Positions 2,776-12,237 of a stretch of 50,989 bases of DNA are shown here, one piece after another. How positions within the stretch are numbered: the stretch's first letter is position 1; each line of letters begins with the position of its first letter. Source of the stretch: Chloroflexota bacterium (GTDB taxonomy: Bacteria > Chloroflexota > Anaerolineae > B4-G1 > DUEL01); contig JADBJJ010000031.1 in assembly GCA_014874475.1 (NCBI GenBank), positions 1 through 50,989 on the forward strand. Direction: 5' to 3'. Made by a program: the position numbers and the translations under genes. Below the pieces are notes generated by a model. That model ran no database searches. It was given only the letters and a program-made list of their open reading frames with translations, and had not been told where the DNA came from.

Positions 2776-4281
2776 TCAATCTGTATACGTGATGGTCAGC
2801 CTTGTATCGCCCAGCCGCACGGCATCAATTACTGCATCGCCATCGGTGTATCTCTCGTTAAACTGCAGCCGCACTTGAAATCGGGAAGCCCTTGCATTGA
2901 CTTTGGCCTGTAGTACACCGATGCCATCGGCAGCGAAGGCACAGGGGTTGCTCTGCTCCCCTGACAAGCAGAATCGGCACAGAGCTCCCAGAGGAGACCC
3001 GGTGAAGAAATCGCCGGAGTCCAAGGTTCCATAAGCATGCTCGTAGACCCGCAAACACCCAAGGCTGCCGTATGGGTCGCCTAGCTTGTCGCCGGTGCCT
3101 ATGAATAGAGAAACTGAGGTAATGGTCGCTCCAGCAGGTATCCCGGAGATATCAAAGCTCAGAAAGGCTTGCAAAGCGAGGTTTGCACTGTTGTCTCCGA
3201 CGTTTGGATAAGGGTTCACAGCTCCATCCTGCTTCACGTGGCCGTCTTCTGCGGCGACTGAGTATAGGGTCACTGTCCGCGGCACAGGAGTAATTGGCAT
3301 CATCACCCTGTCCTGGGTGTTATTTGCCTCATTGCTCTCAGCCACAGTATTCCCCGAATCGGCGACAGCGCGTGTGGTGTATAAGGCCCAGCCACCGTAA
3401 GTGTAATCACACTCAAGGATTCGCCCTCCACGGGCAGCCAGGGAAGGCACATTCCACGTGCAGCCAGGGCCAGGAGCAGCAATCGTTGCCCACCACTGTA
3501 CGGTAAAAGCGCCTGCATCGGCATTGCCCTGATTATATACACCAACGCGAATACGGCACGGCGAGCCCATAACACAGGGATCGGGGGTTAACGTATACTC
3601 GCTGATATACAGGTCAGGGGCTGGAACGGGAGTGGGCGTGGGCGGCAGCGGTGTATCGGTGGGCACCGGCGTGGGCGGCACCGGTGTAGGAGTGGGCACC
3701 GGCGTGGGCGGCAGTGGTGTATCGGTGGGCACCGGCGTCGCAGGTGCCGGCACGACAATCTGCACCCAGATGACGGCGCCGAAGCGGGTGCCGTCGGGGG
3801 CCTGGAACTGGTAATTGGCCCGATAGGTGCCGGGCGTGGCCGGCGCGACCAGGCTCACGCTCACATCCGTCTGGGCGCCAGGGGCCAGCGCGGGCATGTC
3901 CACCGCCGGAGGGCCGCCCATCGGGTCGCCGGAGATGAAGGCCAGCCGGGTGCCCGGCTCCCAGGCGCAGGTACCCGAGTTGCGCACGCGCCAGGTCTTG
4001 ATAAAGGCGGTGCCCGGGGCGAAAGCGGTGTTATCCGGCACGGTCACATCGGCGACCCAGCGGGCGCCCAGGGTGCAGCCCGCCGCGGTAGTTGGTTCGG
4101 GGGGTAGGGCTTCCGTCGGCGGAGTGGCGGTCAGGGCCGCGACGCCCGGCGTCGCGGTCGGGACCTCGGGCGGTGGCGTCGCCGTGACGACGACGGTGGT
4201 CACCGGCCCGCAGGCCAGCGCGGCCAGCAGCAGAAGAACCGCTGGCACGATCAGAATGGACAGGCACTTATTGGGGGTCAT
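2776..4281 (-). CDS. Multi-domain lipoprotein: NBR1-Ig, CARDB, DNRLRE-like
   Basis: A 501-residue predicted lipoprotein with lipobox ALAC (Cys 24) and the leader tail GPVTTVVVTATP shared with its neighbours. The NBR1-type Ig domain (about 68-180) is almost identical to those at 338-1741 and 4417-6489. It is followed by a low-complexity linker of PTPVPPTP and PTDTPLPP repeats (about 182-222). A CARDB-like adhesion domain follows (about 225-335: DLYISEYTLTPDP to AESNEANNTQ). The last domain (about 340-501: LSFDISGIPAGATITSVSLF) resembles the DNRLRE/CBM96-type modules of surface proteins. GGAGGAG 4-5 bases before the ATG supports the start. The architecture suggests a cell-surface binding protein. 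It has no enzyme signature. The gene lies 135 bases downstream of the sigma fusion on the same strand. Confidence 0.85.
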   Translation of the reverse strand: MTPNKCLSILIVPAVLLLLAALACGPVTTVVVTATPPPEVPTATPGVAALTATPPTEALPPEPTTAAGCTLGARWVADVTVPDNTAFAPGTAFIKTWRVRNSGTCAWEPGTRLAFISGDPMGGPPAVDMPALAPGAQTDVSVSLVAPATPGTYRANYQFQAPDGTRFGAVIWVQIVVPAPATPVPTDTPLPPTPVPTPTPVPPTPVPTDTPLPPTPTPVPAPDLYISEYTLTPDPCVMGSPCRIRVGVYNQGNADAGAFTVQWWATIAAPGPGCTWNVPSLAARGGRILECDYTYGGWALYTTRAVADSGNTVAESNEANNTQDRVMMPITPVPRTVTLYSVAAEDGHVKQDGAVNPYPNVGDNSANLALQAFLSFDISGIPAGATITSVSLFIGTGDKLGDPYGSLGCLRVYEHAYGTLDSGDFFTGSPLGALCRFCLSGEQSNPCAFAADGIGVLQAKVNARASRFQVRLQFNERYTDGDAVIDAVRLGDTRLTITYTD

Positions 4282-4416
4282 GGGTCTCCTCCATACATAG
4301 GCATCGGATTTTTGATTCTACCCGGATAGATGCTGGCTCTCTGCTACTTCTGAAACGTTCGGGAAGACAGATTTGTTACAGGAAAGACGCCAAACTTCAA
4401 TCCGTGAAATCGGCGG

Positions 4417-6489
4417 TTATTTCACCATAACGGTCACTGCCCACATCCCCCGGTAGTCCAGCACCATCAGGTAGGAGACCTGCAAAGCAGGGACCCGCAG
4501 GAGCAGACCGGCAGCGGTCGGCTGGACCAGCAGGGTGTTGCCCAACTCCCGCTGGTTGGGCCAGCCGATGGAGTCCCAGAGGCTGTTCGTGCACCAGACC
4601 TTGCCGAACCCCCGGATGGGCAACTGGTAGCCAGCGGGCGGTGTCATCTGGGCGCACTTCGGGGAAATTTCCGGTTGACTTTCGTCCCAGGTGTCGGTAT
4701 ATGCCCGGAATGGGCCCCGGGAGGCCGCCGTGTCCTCACCATCTACCACGTAGATTTCCCGGTTATCCGACCGCCAGACCATCAGGCTGCGGAAGTGGGT
4801 GTGAGGGTTCGGATCGGTCACGTTGGCCCAAAACTCCTGGATAGCGCCCTGGACGCTGAAGGCGGGCCCGGTCGGACAGCCGATGTCGGCTGTCGGATAG
4901 AGGCTCCGGAACCGGTCCAGGGCGGGCTGGAAGACGGGATCAACAGGGGTGGCGCACCCGCCGACGGGCGGAGGGGCGGTGGGGGAAAACGTCGGGGAGG
5001 GAGTGGGAGTCGGTGTCGCCGGCACCACAATCTGGGTCCAGATGATGGCACCGAAGCGGGTGCCGTCGGGCGCCTGCATCTGCCAGTTCCCCCTGTACGT
5101 TCCGGGCGCGGCCGGCGCGACCAGGCTCACGCTCACATCCGTCTGGGCGCCAGGGGCCAGCGCGGGCACGTCCACCGCCGGAGGGCCGCCCATCGGGTCG
5201 CCGGAGATGAAGGCCAGCCGGGTGCCCGGCTCCCAGGCGCAGGTGCCGGAGTTGCGCACGCGCCAGGTCTTGATAAAGGCGGTGCCCGGGGCGAAAGCGG
5301 TGTTATCCGGCATGGTCACATCGGCGACCCAGCGGGCATCCGGGATACAGGGCGTCGTTGTCGGCATCGGGGTGGGAATCTCCCCGGGCGGGAGCGCGGT
5401 GGGTGAGGGGACAGATTCCCCTGCCGCTGGCGTGGGAGAGAGGACAGCCAACGCCGCAGCAGCCTCTCCGGTCGTGGATGTAGGGGAGGAAGAGAGAAGG
5501 GAAGCGATGAGGTCCGGTGAGGGAGGAGCCTGCGAGGATGAGAGAGCGCGGAGTCCGGAGAGGAGCAGGAAGCCCAGCAGAACCCCGAGTGCCACCAGGA
5601 TAGCCCCGCCGATGACCGCCAGGGCGATCCAGCGGCCTCTTCCCGAAGAGGAGGGAGGTGCAGAGGGTGGTGATGGAGGGGATGGTCCGGAAGGGGGCAA
5701 TTGTCGGAGGCGGGCGAGAAACTTCGGCCTCAACGTCGGCGGCGGGAAGACGGGAGCCAGTGCGGCCAGCAGGCTGGAGACCGTCAACAATTCCTTCCGG
5801 GTGCGTTGGCAGACGGGGCATGCCGCGATGTGTTGCTGGACCTTGCGACGGGCGGCGCGGTCCAGTTCCCCATCCACTTCGGCGGAGAGGAGTTCGTTCA
5901 GCGCATCGCAGGCCAGTCGTCCTTCCTCTGCCATCACCTGCAGGCCGTAGAGGTCCCGGAAGGCCAGCCGGGCCCGGTGGAGGACAACCCGGACGTTTTC
6001 CAGCGAGATGCCCATAACGGATGCTATTTCCTGGTACGAGAGGCCTTCTAGTTCCCGCAGGAGGAGGGCATGACGGTACGTGTCAGGCAGGTGGTGGAGA
6101 GTCTGCCAGATGGCAGCGCGCCGTTCGGCCTGCCGGGCCTGATACTCGGGGTCCGCCGCCGGGCGGGTGTCCACAGGCTCCGGCGCGCCGGCATCCCAAT
6201 CCGGCAGGGGGACCTCCCGCCGATAACGCCGCAGGCCATCCCGGGCCAGATTGCCCGCGATGCGGTAGAGCCAGGACTTGAAGTCGTAGGGTGGGCCCAG
6301 ACGTCCCAGGTGCTGGTGGGCGCGGATGAATGCCTCCTGGGTCAGGTCCTCCGCCCACGCCCGGTCGCCCACCATGCGGTAGACGTACCCGAAGATGCGG
6401 CCCTCGTAGCGGGTAAACAGTTCGGCGAAGGCGTCCTTATCCCCGCGCTGGGCGCGGCGAACCAAGTTGCCATCAGACGGTGCAGACAT
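4417..6489 (-). CDS. Membrane-tethered ECF sigma factor fused to anti-sigma, NBR1-Ig and C-terminal sensor domains
   Basis: A 690-residue single-span membrane protein. Residues 10-92 are sigma region 2 (FAELFTRYEGRIFGYVYRMV; DLTQEAFIRAH; FKSWLYRIAGN). Residues 122-180 are sigma region 4 (LPDTYRHALLLRELEGLSYQ; helix-turn-helix near IASVMGISLENVRVVLHRAR). Residues 190-240 are a zinc anti-sigma domain with HX3CX2C at His220, Cys224 and Cys227. A Pro/Ser linker leads to one membrane helix (about 287-311), then a Pro/Thr/Ser stalk. The NBR1-Ig domain (381-490) and a C-terminal domain (512-690) with PIRGFGKVW and IGWPNQ follow, both shared with the lipoprotein at 338. With the N-terminus inside, the Ig domain lies outside. 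ECF sigma factors are normally free proteins of about 190 residues, held by a separate anti-sigma. Here all parts are one chain. I infer that release or rearrangement follows an envelope signal. The reading frame is uninterrupted, and AAAGGA precedes the ATG. Confidence 0.88.
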   Translation of the reverse strand: MSAPSDGNLVRRAQRGDKDAFAELFTRYEGRIFGYVYRMVGDRAWAEDLTQEAFIRAHQHLGRLGPPYDFKSWLYRIAGNLARDGLRRYRREVPLPDWDAGAPEPVDTRPAADPEYQARQAERRAAIWQTLHHLPDTYRHALLLRELEGLSYQEIASVMGISLENVRVVLHRARLAFRDLYGLQVMAEEGRLACDALNELLSAEVDGELDRAARRKVQQHIAACPVCQRTRKELLTVSSLLAALAPVFPPPTLRPKFLARLRQLPPSGPSPPSPPSAPPSSSGRGRWIALAVIGGAILVALGVLLGFLLLSGLRALSSSQAPPSPDLIASLLSSSPTSTTGEAAAALAVLSPTPAAGESVPSPTALPPGEIPTPMPTTTPCIPDARWVADVTMPDNTAFAPGTAFIKTWRVRNSGTCAWEPGTRLAFISGDPMGGPPAVDVPALAPGAQTDVSVSLVAPAAPGTYRGNWQMQAPDGTRFGAIIWTQIVVPATPTPTPSPTFSPTAPPPVGGCATPVDPVFQPALDRFRSLYPTADIGCPTGPAFSVQGAIQEFWANVTDPNPHTHFRSLMVWRSDNREIYVVDGEDTAASRGPFRAYTDTWDESQPEISPKCAQMTPPAGYQLPIRGFGKVWCTNSLWDSIGWPNQRELGNTLLVQPTAAGLLLRVPALQVSYLMVLDYRGMWAVTVMVK

Positions 6490-6504: not shown

Positions 6505-6522
6505 GAACCGGGTCAGTGGTTC
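6505..6522. promoter_or_regulatory. Inverted repeat GAACC-N8-GGTTC before the sigma-fusion gene
   Basis: GAACC at 6505-6509 and GGTTC at 6518-6522 form a perfect 5-bp inverted repeat with 8 bases between. It is immediately upstream of the AAAGGA ribosome-binding site of the gene starting at 6489. On the minus strand the first half reads TTGAACC, which also resembles an ECF -35 element (GAAC core). It could be an operator, an autoregulatory ECF promoter or chance. Confidence 0.35.
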
Positions 6523-6683
6523 AAGGAGTTACAGGGAATGCACAGGAGAAACGTTGTAGTAGTAGGCAGGCCAGATGCATGCTGCCCAGGAGGGCATAGA
6601 CGAACAATTTGTAGGCTGCCGGTTAGTGGGGACACGGGGGGGCAGAATGTATTTGGACCCGCTTTCCCTGGTCTCTATTTAAG

Positions 6684-6711
6684 ATTATAACATGTTTGAG
6701 TGGCTTGTCAA
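6684..6711 (-). promoter_or_regulatory. Consensus vegetative promoter of the sigma-fusion gene
   Basis: On the minus strand TTGACA (6711-6706) and TATAAT (6689-6684) are separated by 16 bases. Both hexamers match the housekeeping consensus perfectly, the best promoter in the window. Transcription would start near 6677 and give a leader of about 190 bases before the ATG at 6489. The sigma fusion is therefore probably made by the housekeeping polymerase rather than only by itself. Confidence 0.75.
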
Positions 6712-6848: not shown

Positions 6849-9572
6849 CTACCGAACCGCATGCAGGAGAAGCGCTCCCGTCCGCGCGGCTTCATTGGGG
6901 TCAGGAGTATGCTCCAGAAGGACAACCACCGCATAACGGGGATTTCCGGCTGGGGCGACGCCCAGGAACCAGGCATGAGGCGGACGGTCCTCTCCAGCCA
7001 CCGCCGTCCCCAGGTGACCGAGGACATCCGTTGAGAAGGGCTCCCAGGCCGAGAGCAGGGCCCGTGCCGCGTCGGCAGGCAGTACTTCCCGGGGGCGGCT
7101 GGCGACTTCCGGTGTCTGCCAGGTCCCATCCGGCCCCTGTACCTCCAATACCAGGCGCGGCACCGGCATAACCCCGCCGTTCGCCAGAGTCGCGGCCACC
7201 AGAGCCATCCGCAGCGGCGAGACGGTGAGGCTTCCCTGCCCTATGGCCTCCATGACCGCGTCGTCGGGGACCCAGGCGGTCACCGGGGGCGAGGTGGGCG
7301 TGACCGACAACTCTCCGGTAGCGGCAGGCGCCCTCGTCCTCAATGTCTGACCTCCCGCCTCCGGGGCCCGCTCCGACGGCAACCCTTCCGTCAGTCCCCA
7401 GCTGAGAAAGCCCTCCCTCAGCCCAGACGTCCCCAGTTGCTGACCGAGCGCGGCGAAAGGACCCGGACAAGCCGCCCGCAGAGCGCCAATCATGAGTTCG
7501 TCTGCGGGGATTTCCTCACGACATCCCACAGTCACTTTGTTGACCCAGAGCGTGGCTGTCAGGTTCGGAGCGGGGGTGTAGAGGGTCGTCAGGCCGCGCC
7601 GGAGGGCCTCCGCCAGGACCACCGTCTCCAGCGCCGCTCCGGGCTGGTAGGGCTGGAGGGCCCGGTTCAGCAGCGGGCCGTTTGGGTCCTCCCGCAACCG
7701 GTCCCATTCTTCCTCCAGACGATTGGGGTCAAAGGTCGGTGAGGAAGCCATAGCCAGCACTTCCCCGCTGGAGGCGTCCAGCAGCACCACTGTCCCCGTC
7801 CGTCCCGCCAGGGACTGCTGGGCCAGCCGCTGGAGCGTCCCGTCCAATGCCAAGCGAACATCCCGGCCCTGGGGAGGACGGTGGAGAAGGGCGTCCCAGG
7901 CCGCCTTCCAGACGGAGCGGCCCGTCTCCCCGCGCAGGACCCGGTCAAAAGCCGCTTCTATCCCCCCGGTCCCGTGGCGCAGACTGGCGTAGCCGACAAC
8001 CGGCGCCGCCGCCGGCTCCGGGTAGGTGCGGGTGACCCGACCGTCCGGCCCCACCGTCACCCCGGCCAAGACGGCCCCATTCCGGTCCAGAATCTGGCCC
8101 CGAACGATGCGTCGCTCGTACTCCACCCGGCGGGGGTTATCCTCCCGCGCCACCAGCCAGCCCGCCCGGACCACCGACCAGTAGCCGCAGGCCAGGGCGA
8201 GTACTCCCAGGGCCAGCCCCAGGCCCAGGGCCAGCCGACAGATAGGCCGTACCCACTCCCGATCGCGAGGAGCGGAGGTCGCTCCGGCAGAAATCACCAG
8301 GAGCAGGCCGACGGCGATAAACGTTGCCAGCAGGGAAGAGCCGCCGTAGGACAGAAAGGGCAGAGTCACTCCGGCGATGGGTACTAGTTTGACATTGGCG
8401 GCCATGATGATCCAGGCCTGGATCCCCCAACCGGCAACCAGTCCGGCGGCCAGAAACCGCTCAAAGGGACGAGGGACGCGCAGGGCGGCCCGGAGCCCCC
8501 GGGCCAGCAGGACCCCGTAGAGGGCGATGAGGGCAAGGGCGCCCAGAAGGCCGAACTCTTCAGCGACGGCGGCGAAGACAAAGTCGGTGTGGACGGCGGG
8601 GATGTAGGTGGGGCGGCCCAGGCCCAACCCCTGGCCGAAAATCCCCCCGGCACCGAAGGCCAGCAGGCTCTGGACGACCTGGAAGGCCCGGTCGGCAGCG
8701 CCCGGCCAGGGAGAAAGCCATATCTGAATTCGCATCGCAACCCGATCCGAGCCGTAGTATCCGATGCTCCCGGCCAGGAGGAAGAGGGCCAGTCCCACGA
8801 CCAGGTACCCCCATTGGCCCGTCGTCAGGTAGAGCATGGCCAGAAACGTCAGGAAGAGAAGCATCGCAGCGCCCAGGTCCTGCTGAGCGGCCAAGAGGAG
8901 CACCGTCAGGCCAAACATGACCAGGAGGGGGCCGATGTAGGCCAGGGGAGGGAGGAGCAGGCGGCCAATGCGGTGCCCCGTCACTTTTAGCAATTCCCGC
9001 CGCTCGGCCAGGTAGGAAGCCAGGAAGACGACCAGGAGGAGTTTGAGCGGCTCCGATGGCTGGAAGTACGCGCCGCCGATGCCCAGCCAGAGGCGGGGGC
9101 CGGCGCCGCCCGGGTTGACGCCCAGGACGAGGGTCGCGGCCAGGAGGAGCAGACCGGCGAGGAGCCAAGTGTAGCGGTAGCGGCGCAGCCAGCGAAGAGG
9201 GATGGTATCCTGGGCGCCGATCTGGACGACGGCGATCATAGCCAGGGTGGAGAGAAGGAGCCAGGTCGCCTGGCGGGGCAGGAAGTTCGGCGCCAGACGG
9301 CCCACCATGAGCAGACCCCAGCCGGACAGGAAGGCAACGGTGGGAAGGATAAGCGGGTCGCGGTAGGGCAACCAGCGGGATAGGGTGACATGGGCAGCCG
9401 TGAAGGAGAGGGCAAAGGAGAGGAGCATGCCAGCGGCTCGCGCGGCGCCCAGCGCAGGAGAGGCAACCAGCAGGGTCGCGGTGCCCACTGCGACGAAGAG
9501 AAACGCCAGCAGGAGCAACTGCCGCTCCCGCCGGACAACAAAGGGCGGATAGGGTTCGGTAGGGCCTATCAT
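6849..9572 (-). CDS. FtsW/RodA-family SEDS protein fused to a degenerate penicillin-binding transpeptidase domain
   Basis: A 907-residue fusion. Residues 15-430 are a polytopic SEDS peptidoglycan glycosyltransferase. QQDLGAA (Asp232) and PAVHTDFVFAAVAEEFG keep Asp330, the position equivalent to the essential FtsW Asp297. A further membrane segment (about 443-470) leads to a class B PBP-like region (about 475-907: RGQILDRNGAVLAG; VVLLDASSGEVLAMASSPTF; PPHAWFLGVAPAGNPRYAV). The three transpeptidase motifs are all changed. SxxK is AALE (646-649), SxN is ACP (701-703), and KTG is HLG (853-855). The polymerase half looks active and the cross-linking half looks dead, perhaps kept as an activator. 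No Shine-Dalgarno precedes the ATG at 9572. The leader consists of an 8-bp tandem repeat. Confidence 0.88.
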   Translation of the reverse strand: MIGPTEPYPPFVVRRERQLLLLAFLFVAVGTATLLVASPALGAARAAGMLLSFALSFTAAHVTLSRWLPYRDPLILPTVAFLSGWGLLMVGRLAPNFLPRQATWLLLSTLAMIAVVQIGAQDTIPLRWLRRYRYTWLLAGLLLLAATLVLGVNPGGAGPRLWLGIGGAYFQPSEPLKLLLVVFLASYLAERRELLKVTGHRIGRLLLPPLAYIGPLLVMFGLTVLLLAAQQDLGAAMLLFLTFLAMLYLTTGQWGYLVVGLALFLLAGSIGYYGSDRVAMRIQIWLSPWPGAADRAFQVVQSLLAFGAGGIFGQGLGLGRPTYIPAVHTDFVFAAVAEEFGLLGALALIALYGVLLARGLRAALRVPRPFERFLAAGLVAGWGIQAWIIMAANVKLVPIAGVTLPFLSYGGSSLLATFIAVGLLLVISAGATSAPRDREWVRPICRLALGLGLALGVLALACGYWSVVRAGWLVAREDNPRRVEYERRIVRGQILDRNGAVLAGVTVGPDGRVTRTYPEPAAAPVVGYASLRHGTGGIEAAFDRVLRGETGRSVWKAAWDALLHRPPQGRDVRLALDGTLQRLAQQSLAGRTGTVVLLDASSGEVLAMASSPTFDPNRLEEEWDRLREDPNGPLLNRALQPYQPGAALETVVLAEALRRGLTTLYTPAPNLTATLWVNKVTVGCREEIPADELMIGALRAACPGPFAALGQQLGTSGLREGFLSWGLTEGLPSERAPEAGGQTLRTRAPAATGELSVTPTSPPVTAWVPDDAVMEAIGQGSLTVSPLRMALVAATLANGGVMPVPRLVLEVQGPDGTWQTPEVASRPREVLPADAARALLSAWEPFSTDVLGHLGTAVAGEDRPPHAWFLGVAPAGNPRYAVVVLLEHTPDPNEAARTGALLLHAVR

Positions 9573-10161: not shown

Positions 10162-12237
10162 TTACTCCCGCTCCTGTTCCCGCTCCCGCTTGGCAGCCTC
10201 TATAATCGGCTGCGCCAAGTGCGGCGGGACCTCTTCGTAATGGCCAAACTCCATCCAGAACAGACCCCGTCCCTGGGTCATGCTGCGCAATTCGGTGGCG
10301 TACCGCTGCATCTCTGCCAGCGGGGCCAGGGCCGTGATGGTGCTCTTCCCCCCCTGCTGCTCCAACCCCAGCACGCGGGCCCGTTTGGTGTTCAGGTGGC
10401 CCATAACGTCGCCCGTAAACTCCTCCGGAACAGTGATGACGAACTTGCAGATCGGCTCCAGGAGCACCGGACCAGCGCCCAGCATCACTTTCTTGAATGC
10501 CTCCCGTCCGGCAATCTGGAAGGCGATGTCTTTGGAGTCCACCGGGTGCTCTTTCCCGTCGTAAACGACGGCCTTCACATCTACGACAGGATACCCGGCA
10601 ATGACGCCACTTTCCAGCATTTGTCGGATGCCCTTCTCAATGGACGGCTGGAAGGAAGAGGAAATAGCACCGCCGAAGACTTCCCACCCGTACTCAAAGC
10701 CAGTCCCACGCGGGAGCGGCTCCAGGCGCATATGCACTTCAGCGAATTGCCCCGCGCCTCCCGTCTGCTTCTTATGCCGGTAGTAGTCGGAATGGACGCG
10801 GGTAATGGTCTCCTGGTATGGGACTTTGGGAGTGGCAGTCTCCACACCAACGCCGAAGCGGTTCTCCATGCGCCGGACGGCGATCTCCACGTGTGCCTCG
10901 CCCATGCCCTCCAGAATCGTTTCGCGGGTGCTCGGCTCCTGCCGCCAGCGCAGGGTCGGGTCCTCCTCGCAGATGCGGGTGAGCGTGGGAGCCATCTTGG
11001 CCTGGTCGGCCTTGCTCTTGGGGCGGACAGCGACAGCAAAGAGCGGATGCGGGAAGACAGGGCCAAGTATCTTCACCGCATGGCCCCGGTCACAGAGGGT
11101 GTCGCCGGTAACTGTCTCGGAGAGTTTGGCGACCGCGCCGATATCGCCCGCGTGCAGGCGGGGGACGGCGATTTGCTCTTTGCCCCGCATCACGTAGAGA
11201 GTGCCCAGCCGCTCCTCGGTACTGGCGCGGCTGTTCCATACTCGCGTGTCCGATTCCAGCATCCCGCCGTAAACCCGGAAGTAGGTCAGTTTGCCCACGT
11301 AGGGGTCGGCGGCAGTCTTGAAGACCAGCGCGGCCAAAGGAGCGGTGTCGCTGGGATCAATCTCTTCCTCCTCACCGGTGGGGCCCTCAGCCTTGACCGG
11401 CCCTCGGTCCGCCGGGGACGGGGCGAAGGCGACCAGCGCGTCTAACAGTGCCCGGGTGCCAATGTTCTCCGTTGCCGCTGTCACCAGAACCGGGACGACG
11501 CTCCCTTTCAGAATGGCCGCCCGCAAGCCGCGCCGGATTTCCTCCTCTGTCAGTTCTTCGCCCTCCAGATACTTCATTATGAGTTCGTCCTCACCCTCGG
11601 CGGCGGCCTCAATCAGTTGGACGCGCGCTTCATCGGCCTGGGCTTTCATATCGGCAGGGATGTCGGCGACCTTTGCCTCAGGCCCCATCAGTGCCCGCAT
11701 CCGCACCAGGTCCACCACGCCAGCAAAGTGGACCTGGGAGCCCACAGGCAGTTGGAGGGGAACGAAATTGCGCCGGAACGCGTCCCGCAGCGCCTGCAGG
11801 GTGCGGGCAAAGTCGGCATTCTCCCGATTCATCTTGTTGACCACCACCATCCGGGGCAGGTCGTACTGGTCGGCGTAGTTCCAGACCAGTTCGGTGCCGA
11901 CCTCCACCCCACCCACCGGGTCCACCAGTACCAGCGCCAGATCGGCCACGCGGATGCTGCTGATCACCTCGCCAATAAAATCCAGGTAGCCGGGGGTATC
12001 CAGAACGTTCAGTTTGCACCCTTCCCATTCCACCGGAATCAGGGCAAGGCTCAGGGAGATACGTCGTCGGATTTCCTCTTCGTCAAAATCGGAGACGGTG
12101 GTACCGTCCTCCACCCGTCCCATGCGATTGGTGGCGCCACTGGTGAAGAGCATCGCTTCCGCCAGGGACGTCTTGCCGCTGCTGCCGTGGCCCAGCAAAA
12201 CCAGATTGCGAATATGTTGGGTCGTGTACTCCTTCAA
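10162..12237 (-). CDS. Elongation factor G-like GTPase (EF-G paralogue)
   Basis: A 691-residue translational GTPase with the length and domain order of EF-G. The G domain has P-loop GHGSSGKT (16-23) and DTPGYLDF. Domain II begins near TAPLAALVFKTAADPYVGKL. Domains III to V end with a C-terminus rich in Glu and Arg. DGTTVSDFDEEE in switch I is typical of the EF-G2-like paralogues rather than the main fusA product. The guanine-specificity motif NKxD reads NKMN (134-137; the codon is AAT), which is unusual. I chose TTG 12237 because CAGGAGG is 5 bases upstream and the protein then starts where EF-G normally does. A longer frame to 12342 would include the promoter. No ribosomal protein genes are adjacent. 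Confidence 0.88.
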   Translation of the reverse strand: MKEYTTQHIRNLVLLGHGSSGKTSLAEAMLFTSGATNRMGRVEDGTTVSDFDEEEIRRRISLSLALIPVEWEGCKLNVLDTPGYLDFIGEVISSIRVADLALVLVDPVGGVEVGTELVWNYADQYDLPRMVVVNKMNRENADFARTLQALRDAFRRNFVPLQLPVGSQVHFAGVVDLVRMRALMGPEAKVADIPADMKAQADEARVQLIEAAAEGEDELIMKYLEGEELTEEEIRRGLRAAILKGSVVPVLVTAATENIGTRALLDALVAFAPSPADRGPVKAEGPTGEEEEIDPSDTAPLAALVFKTAADPYVGKLTYFRVYGGMLESDTRVWNSRASTEERLGTLYVMRGKEQIAVPRLHAGDIGAVAKLSETVTGDTLCDRGHAVKILGPVFPHPLFAVAVRPKSKADQAKMAPTLTRICEEDPTLRWRQEPSTRETILEGMGEAHVEIAVRRMENRFGVGVETATPKVPYQETITRVHSDYYRHKKQTGGAGQFAEVHMRLEPLPRGTGFEYGWEVFGGAISSSFQPSIEKGIRQMLESGVIAGYPVVDVKAVVYDGKEHPVDSKDIAFQIAGREAFKKVMLGAGPVLLEPICKFVITVPEEFTGDVMGHLNTKRARVLGLEQQGGKSTITALAPLAEMQRYATELRSMTQGRGLFWMEFGHYEEVPPHLAQPIIEAAKREREQERE

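Follow-up and report, generated by a model that had tools for sequence, protein, structure and literature searches.

A one-chain transmembrane ECF sigma factor in Chloroflexota carries surface modules shared with lipoproteins of its predicted regulon

The minus strand of the window (the whole 50,989-nt stretch of Chloroflexota DNA analysed here) encodes a sigma factor, its anti-sigma domain, a membrane anchor and an external sensor in one chain of 690 amino acids (positions 4417-6489). From sequence comparison, this one-chain architecture is conserved in related genomes, its ectodomain modules are shared with lipoproteins and exchanged among orthologs, and a predicted promoter element precedes both the sigma gene and lipoprotein genes. 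We consider it reasonably probable that the protein is a self-inhibited, tethered ECF sigma factor that is freed by proteolysis and drives expression of itself and of the lipoproteins sharing its sensor modules.

The frame starts with ATG, contains no internal stops and has a high third-position GC content along its entire length. All Pfam domain matches in the protein exceeded their gathering scores. Sigma region 2 (Sigma70_r2, PF04542, 65 bits) occupies residues 24-91 (6217-6420, minus strand, as for all features of this gene) and region 4 (Sigma70_r4_2, PF08281, 59 bits) residues 125-175 (5965-6117). With regions 2 and 4 and no region 3, this is an ECF sigma factor (sigma-70 family group 4), and NCBIfam matches of the sigma part were to general ECF models only. 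A zinc anti-sigma domain (ZAS; zf-HC2, PF13490, 34.3 bits against a cut-off of 22.2) follows at residues 194-228 (5806-5910). Its sequence HIAACPVC fits the HX3CX2C pattern, of which the histidine and both cysteines are invariant in nine sequences, and as a small helical domain after the sigma part it is a class I anti-sigma domain. A single membrane helix at about residues 286/287-311 (5557-5631; hydropathy up to 2.79), found in all orthologs, is followed by a Pro/Ser/Thr-rich linker. The ectodomain comprises an N_BRCA1_IG (NBR1 Ig/FW-like) domain at residues 392-489 (5023-5316; PF16158, 106 bits against a cut-off of 28, over the full model length) and a C-terminal domain of 175 residues (516-690; 4420-4944) that has no Pfam name and resembles parts of Ig lipoproteins elsewhere; we refer to it as GFG, from its motif RGFGKVW. 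The initial annotation, which gave no strand, had proposed just this single frame of sigma regions, zinc domain, helix, Ig domain and C-terminal domain, and the Pfam matches, the hydropathy profile and the lack of stops confirmed it; its view that sensor, anchor and sigma factor form one chain was likewise borne out by the Pfam domains and the helix.

The part spanning sigma regions, ZAS and membrane helix was also an unbroken frame in nine further genomes, giving ten genomes from three families, with the sigma-ZAS part 69-92% identical among orthologs. The named hosts of the orthologs are uncultured Thermoflexus, Thermoflexales and Anaerolineae. Since only 10 of 396 genomes sampled from the class gave strong matches, this one-chain family is, by sequence, restricted to one lineage. 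The nine other genomes that keep one frame, together with the high third-position GC throughout, make it very unlikely that sequencing joined two genes, and we rejected a fusion artefact on the strength of the unbroken, conserved sigma-ZAS frame in other genomes. Across the phylum, 84 of 400 genomes contained a match at E 1e-35, and many of these matches span the ZAS within a single frame; some of the proteins are soluble and of around 290 amino acids, others longer. Soluble sigma-ZAS frames of about 260-295 amino acids that lack the helix are frequent in other Chloroflexota classes (loci L220-L227, L229, L232-L234, L236). Such one-frame proteins being frequent, sigma-ZAS fusion by itself is, judged from these genomes, not unusual in Chloroflexota. 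The joined sigma/anti-sigma chain, presented earlier as a departure from the usual separate anti-sigma factor, is thus not the novelty here; IutY (ECF243), ECF48, ECF52 and ECF53 have already been described, and fused frames are frequent in this phylum.

To model how the fused domain is placed, residues 1-265 were submitted to AlphaFold (pLDDT 84, pTM 0.78). The model superposed on Bacillus subtilis SigW held by RsiW across both sigma domains (Z 18, 2.3 Å, 155 residues), whereas RNA-polymerase-bound ECF chains aligning over both sigma domains fitted it at 22-28 Å. Because the modelled sigma placement matches SigW-RsiW and not the polymerase-bound chains, regions 2 and 4 of the sigma part are probably clamped by the ZAS fused to them, and the clamped pose may partly reflect AlphaFold training on SigW-RsiW. 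SigW/RsiW, the best structural match, resembles our protein in this inhibited pose and in carrying the ZAS on a membrane helix; it differs in that the anti-sigma factor is separate, the sensor part is short and the promoter sequence is another. In the ectodomain model the Ig part formed a confident beta fold and GFG remained below pLDDT 50 (five sequences). For the ectodomain, a sequence search of solved structures returned nothing meaningful (antibody chains, E 0.03).

Three lipoprotein genes lie downstream of the sigma gene on the same strand. Lipoprotein 1 (2776-4281, 501 amino acids), a predicted target, has a lipobox, an N_BRCA1_IG domain and CARDB. Lipoprotein 2 (1796-2638) has a lipobox and no Ig domain, and the true start of its 280-amino-acid ORF is probably internal. 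Lipoprotein 3 (338-1747, 469 amino acids) has a lipobox, N_BRCA1_IG and a C-terminal part that is GFG-like by a weak match. The initial annotation held that the external parts of the sigma protein are common to the downstream lipoproteins. This stood for the Ig module, present in lipoproteins 1 and 3, but only in part for GFG, matched in lipoprotein 3, and lipoprotein 2 lacks the Ig domain. GFG is clearly shared with lipoproteins of other genomes, where it matches the C-terminal part of Ig lipoproteins at 47-60% identity. Three of the five N_BRCA1_IG copies in the whole 3.0-Mb genome are in the window. These three are 86-93% identical in DNA, compared with 85% for the sigma Ig of the ortholog in a sister genome, which suggests from sequence that the Ig neighbours were recently duplicated or converted. 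The gap between lipoproteins 1 and 2 (2639-2775) contains a long G+C-rich inverted repeat. In L058 (about 11380-11480) and L131 (about 2095-2170) the corresponding gap contains repeated palindromes, GGTGACSGTCACC, which may be either a site for a regulator or a palindromic element that is mobile. Next to the sigma gene, on its upstream side, a single 907-amino-acid frame (6849-9572, minus strand) encodes a SEDS-PBP fusion with FtsW/RodA (residues 97-429), penicillin-binding transpeptidase (593-890) and PBP dimerisation domains. This FtsW/PBP gene was considered as a member of the system and rejected, its synteny with the sigma gene not being kept in L053 and L058.

Upstream regions of the ten sigma genes were then aligned. 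GTAAC was invariant, the -10 sequence CGTT nearly so, and the 17-nt spacer variable; the resulting element, TGTAAC-N17-CGTT, has the form of a predicted ECF promoter and is presumably close to the SigX consensus of B. subtilis. In the window, a degenerate copy (TGTAAC-N17-CGGT; 6507-6533, minus strand) lies 17 nt before the ATG of the sigma gene, as recognised from the alignment with the nine orthologs, and a predicted housekeeping promoter (TTGACA-N16-TATAAT; 6684-6711, minus strand) further upstream is conserved throughout the genus (four genomes). The -10 element of L054 and L055 lies immediately against the sole plausible ATG, so that transcription from the autoregulatory promoter would begin inside the frame. 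An exact TGTAAC-N17-CGTT (4354-4380, minus strand) is predicted ahead of the lipoprotein 1 gene, and the element occupies the equivalent position in L058 (N17) and L131 (N16). The number of exact matches expected in the window is 0.02, and the 3.0-Mb genome contains two only. The other one (L151, G000 C11:110227) overlaps the beginning of what looks like a peptidyl-tRNA hydrolase gene; this match is probably due to chance. GAAC-type promoters had been anticipated before the lipoprotein genes; the conserved element is TGTAAC-N17-CGTT instead. In other classes, the upstream regions searched for distantly related one-frame sigma-ZAS proteins did not contain the element, and we therefore claim the promoter link for this sigma family alone.

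To extend the prediction beyond the window, exact matches were counted in genomes with and without the sigma gene; these are related draft assemblies, MAGs or genome sequences, so the counts are not independent. The ten sigma-bearing genomes had 38 matches against 16 for a reversed control pattern, and ten relatives in which no sigma gene was detected had 6 against 17 (Fisher p 4e-4, with related genomes treated as independent). Eighteen of the 38 matches precede sigma genes (7), Ig lipoproteins (7), lipoproteins with WAD (a beta module beginning 'FWAD') and an FN3-like module (2) or contig-cut lipoproteins (2). The remaining 20 are close to the control number and look like background. Among N_BRCA1_IG genes, collected regardless of the element, 12 of 43 carried it in sigma-bearing genomes (9 of 39 once sigma genes are set aside) and 0 of 28 elsewhere (p 0.001, and 0.005 excluding sigma genes, again taking related genomes as independent). 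Many Ig genes of sigma-bearing genomes have no element. In G023, five of seven matches, spread over four contigs, precede the sigma gene, whose ectodomain is of the WAD+FN3 type, two lipoprotein genes of that same type and two genes for Ig lipoproteins; the two WAD+FN3 lipoproteins sit on contigs other than that of the sigma gene, and two Ig lipoproteins after the sigma gene lack the element. G010 is an exception, with the element before an FN3 lipoprotein and no sigma ortholog found in its 88%-complete assembly. The element also precedes genes of other exported proteins without an Ig match (L172 in G003, L187 in G030), and the regulon may therefore include further surface proteins. Control of its own lipoprotein set, which the initial annotation had offered as a possibility, gains support, as a prediction from sequence, from the presence in several genomes of this conserved ECF-type element ahead of the sigma gene and of lipoprotein genes that share its modules.

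The sigma-ZAS part is constant among orthologs in its layout, and the ectodomain is of several types. All four genomes of the genus have Ig+GFG. WAD+FN3 is found in L054, L055, L059 and L060, FN3 only in L056, and L057 ends at a contig edge ahead of the ectodomain. More distant one-chain proteins carry SH3_3 (L061) or Cys-rich repeats (L050). Two genes downstream of the WAD+FN3 sigma gene L059 lies a gene for a free Ig+GFG lipoprotein that is 56-58% identical to the sigma ectodomain of the window, and free Ig+GFG lipoproteins also occur in relatives without a detected sigma gene (L142, L143, L144, L145). The simplest inference from these sequences is that the ancestor of the genus swapped its sigma ectodomain for the mature part of a lipoprotein.

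In the mechanism that we propose, the ZAS would clamp sigma regions 2 and 4 in the cytoplasm while the Ig+GFG ectodomain would sense the state of the cell surface outside. A signal would lead first to cleavage at the surface and then to site-2 protease cleavage within the membrane helix, setting the sigma part free; homologs of site-2 proteases are present in the source genome, which is weak evidence since they are near universal. The freed sigma factor would recognise TGTAAC-N17-CGTT promoters. It would thereby transcribe its own gene, a positive autoregulation added to the housekeeping promoter, as well as the genes of lipoproteins that carry the sensor's modules. The one-chain design implies that degradation after release would have to halt short of the sigma part. 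We infer that this sigma factor reads the element, that proteolysis releases it, and that a signal and a ligand act on the ectodomain; the element could instead be recognised by a different ECF factor.

Three other explanations have to be weighed. The protein and its regulon could be as proposed but activated without cleavage, through a transmembrane conformational change, a sigma part working while tethered, or loss of zinc or oxidation at the ZAS. In RsrA-type anti-sigma factors the ZAS acts as a redox switch, and the HX3CX2C motif is kept in the ZAS of all orthologs. Soluble, helix-less sigma-ZAS fusions, common elsewhere in the phylum, also speak for activation without cleavage. The fused regulatory domains of ECF41 and ECF238, too, work by conformational change (PMC8999054). 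However, the conserved membrane helix and the exported, exchanged ectodomain point to an outside signal, and IutY, the studied one-chain case, is freed by proteolysis (PMC8999054). By analogy with IutY and with RsgI (PMC12203970), which act in that way, cleavage is the likelier opening route, and we give activation without cleavage roughly a one-in-five standing.

Somewhat less probable still is that the shared Ig domain carries no regulatory meaning, reflecting mere duplication or shuffling of common Chloroflexota surface domains while the targets of the sigma factor lie elsewhere. Local duplication or conversion does occur, as the Ig copies of the window are at least as alike as the sister-genome sigma Ig, and relatives that lack this sigma factor widely have N_BRCA1_IG lipoproteins; but the promoter element ties the sigma gene to both Ig and WAD/FN3 lipoproteins, including those on other contigs and those accompanying other sigma ectodomain types. 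We regard it as highly improbable that the fusion has no function and represents a sigma/anti-sigma pair that decayed or was wrongly assembled. The source genome does contain a sigma gene with its own anti-sigma gene directly after it (L040), and loss of a stop codon in such a pair could yield a fusion, but the frame is unbroken in ten genomes with sigma and ZAS residues strongly conserved, and base composition is coding-like along the whole of it.

By its architecture, the 690-amino-acid protein belongs with the one-chain sigma/transmembrane anti-sigma factors (IutY; ECF48, ECF52, ECF53), since a single frame encodes its sigma regions, ZAS and membrane helix. In IutY (ECF243) of Pseudomonas putida and related one-chain sigma factors for iron signalling, sigma and membrane-bound anti-sigma are likewise joined, and release of IutY by Prc and RseP has been shown (PMC8999054). 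They differ in serving iron-siderophore signalling via an outer-membrane receptor in a Gram-negative, and the parts of PMC8999054 consulted report neither an Ig ectodomain nor sharing of modules between sensor and targets. ECF48, ECF52 (SCO4117) and ECF53 of Actinobacteria have a C-terminal ZAS extension with one or two membrane helices, for which proteolysis was proposed, and in SCO4117 an external part rich in proline is accompanied by a carbohydrate-binding domain (PMC8999054). The likeness to these groups, a sigma factor with C-terminal ZAS and membrane helix, is one of architecture; they come from another phylum and their ectodomain is not N_BRCA1_IG+GFG. By its proposed logic our protein resembles SigI/RsgI, in which the anti-sigma factor displays a sensor module at the surface that belongs to the family of the controlled proteins. 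In Clostridium thermocellum the GH10 module of RsgI6 is 57% identical to the target Xyn10D (PMC4711584), and SigI/RsgI is autoregulated, with cleavage by RseP and then ClpXP (PMC12203970). That system, however, consists of two proteins, with a SigI that is not ECF, an RsgI_N domain that is not a ZAS, polysaccharide-binding modules and cellulosomal enzymes as targets. We considered membership of SigI/RsgI for our protein and rejected it, having found a single chain with ECF regions and zf-HC2 and no RsgI_N in the Pfam scan. In the present case module sharing between sensor and lipoproteins is observed, and control by the sigma factor is predicted from promoter elements alone.

Because the ectodomain copies a lipoprotein module, competition between sensor and lipoproteins for a ligand, or direct contact between them, are natural hypotheses. 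More tentatively, as a possibility that we hold to be rather unlikely in its full form, the sensor may be a molecular copy of its targets (Ig, WAD or FN3) that competes for a surface ligand or partner and so gauges whether surface lipoprotein suffices. The swapped ectodomains would then come from the regulon's own lipoprotein pool, and the polypeptide would be a self-referencing homeostat.

A literature search on Thermoflexus sigma factors and lipoproteins found no papers. As far as the literature found shows, the N_BRCA1_IG+GFG sensor is new, and so are the swapping of ectodomains whose modules come from the predicted regulon and a promoter element by which lipoproteins that share modules are predicted to be targets of a one-chain sigma factor. 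If our reading is true, every layer of surface-to-gene signalling would be contained in one protein, and the predicted regulon, the sigma factor itself and the lipoproteins built of its sensor modules, would be readable from sequence. The promoter element could be used for regulon assignment in Chloroflexota, for which genetic tools are scarce. The principle of a sensor that resembles its targets, as in clostridial RsgI, would now also cover a one-chain protein and lipoproteins whose function is unknown, and the family, with its exchangeable ectodomains, would offer a simple, testable system for how bacteria sense their own surface coat.
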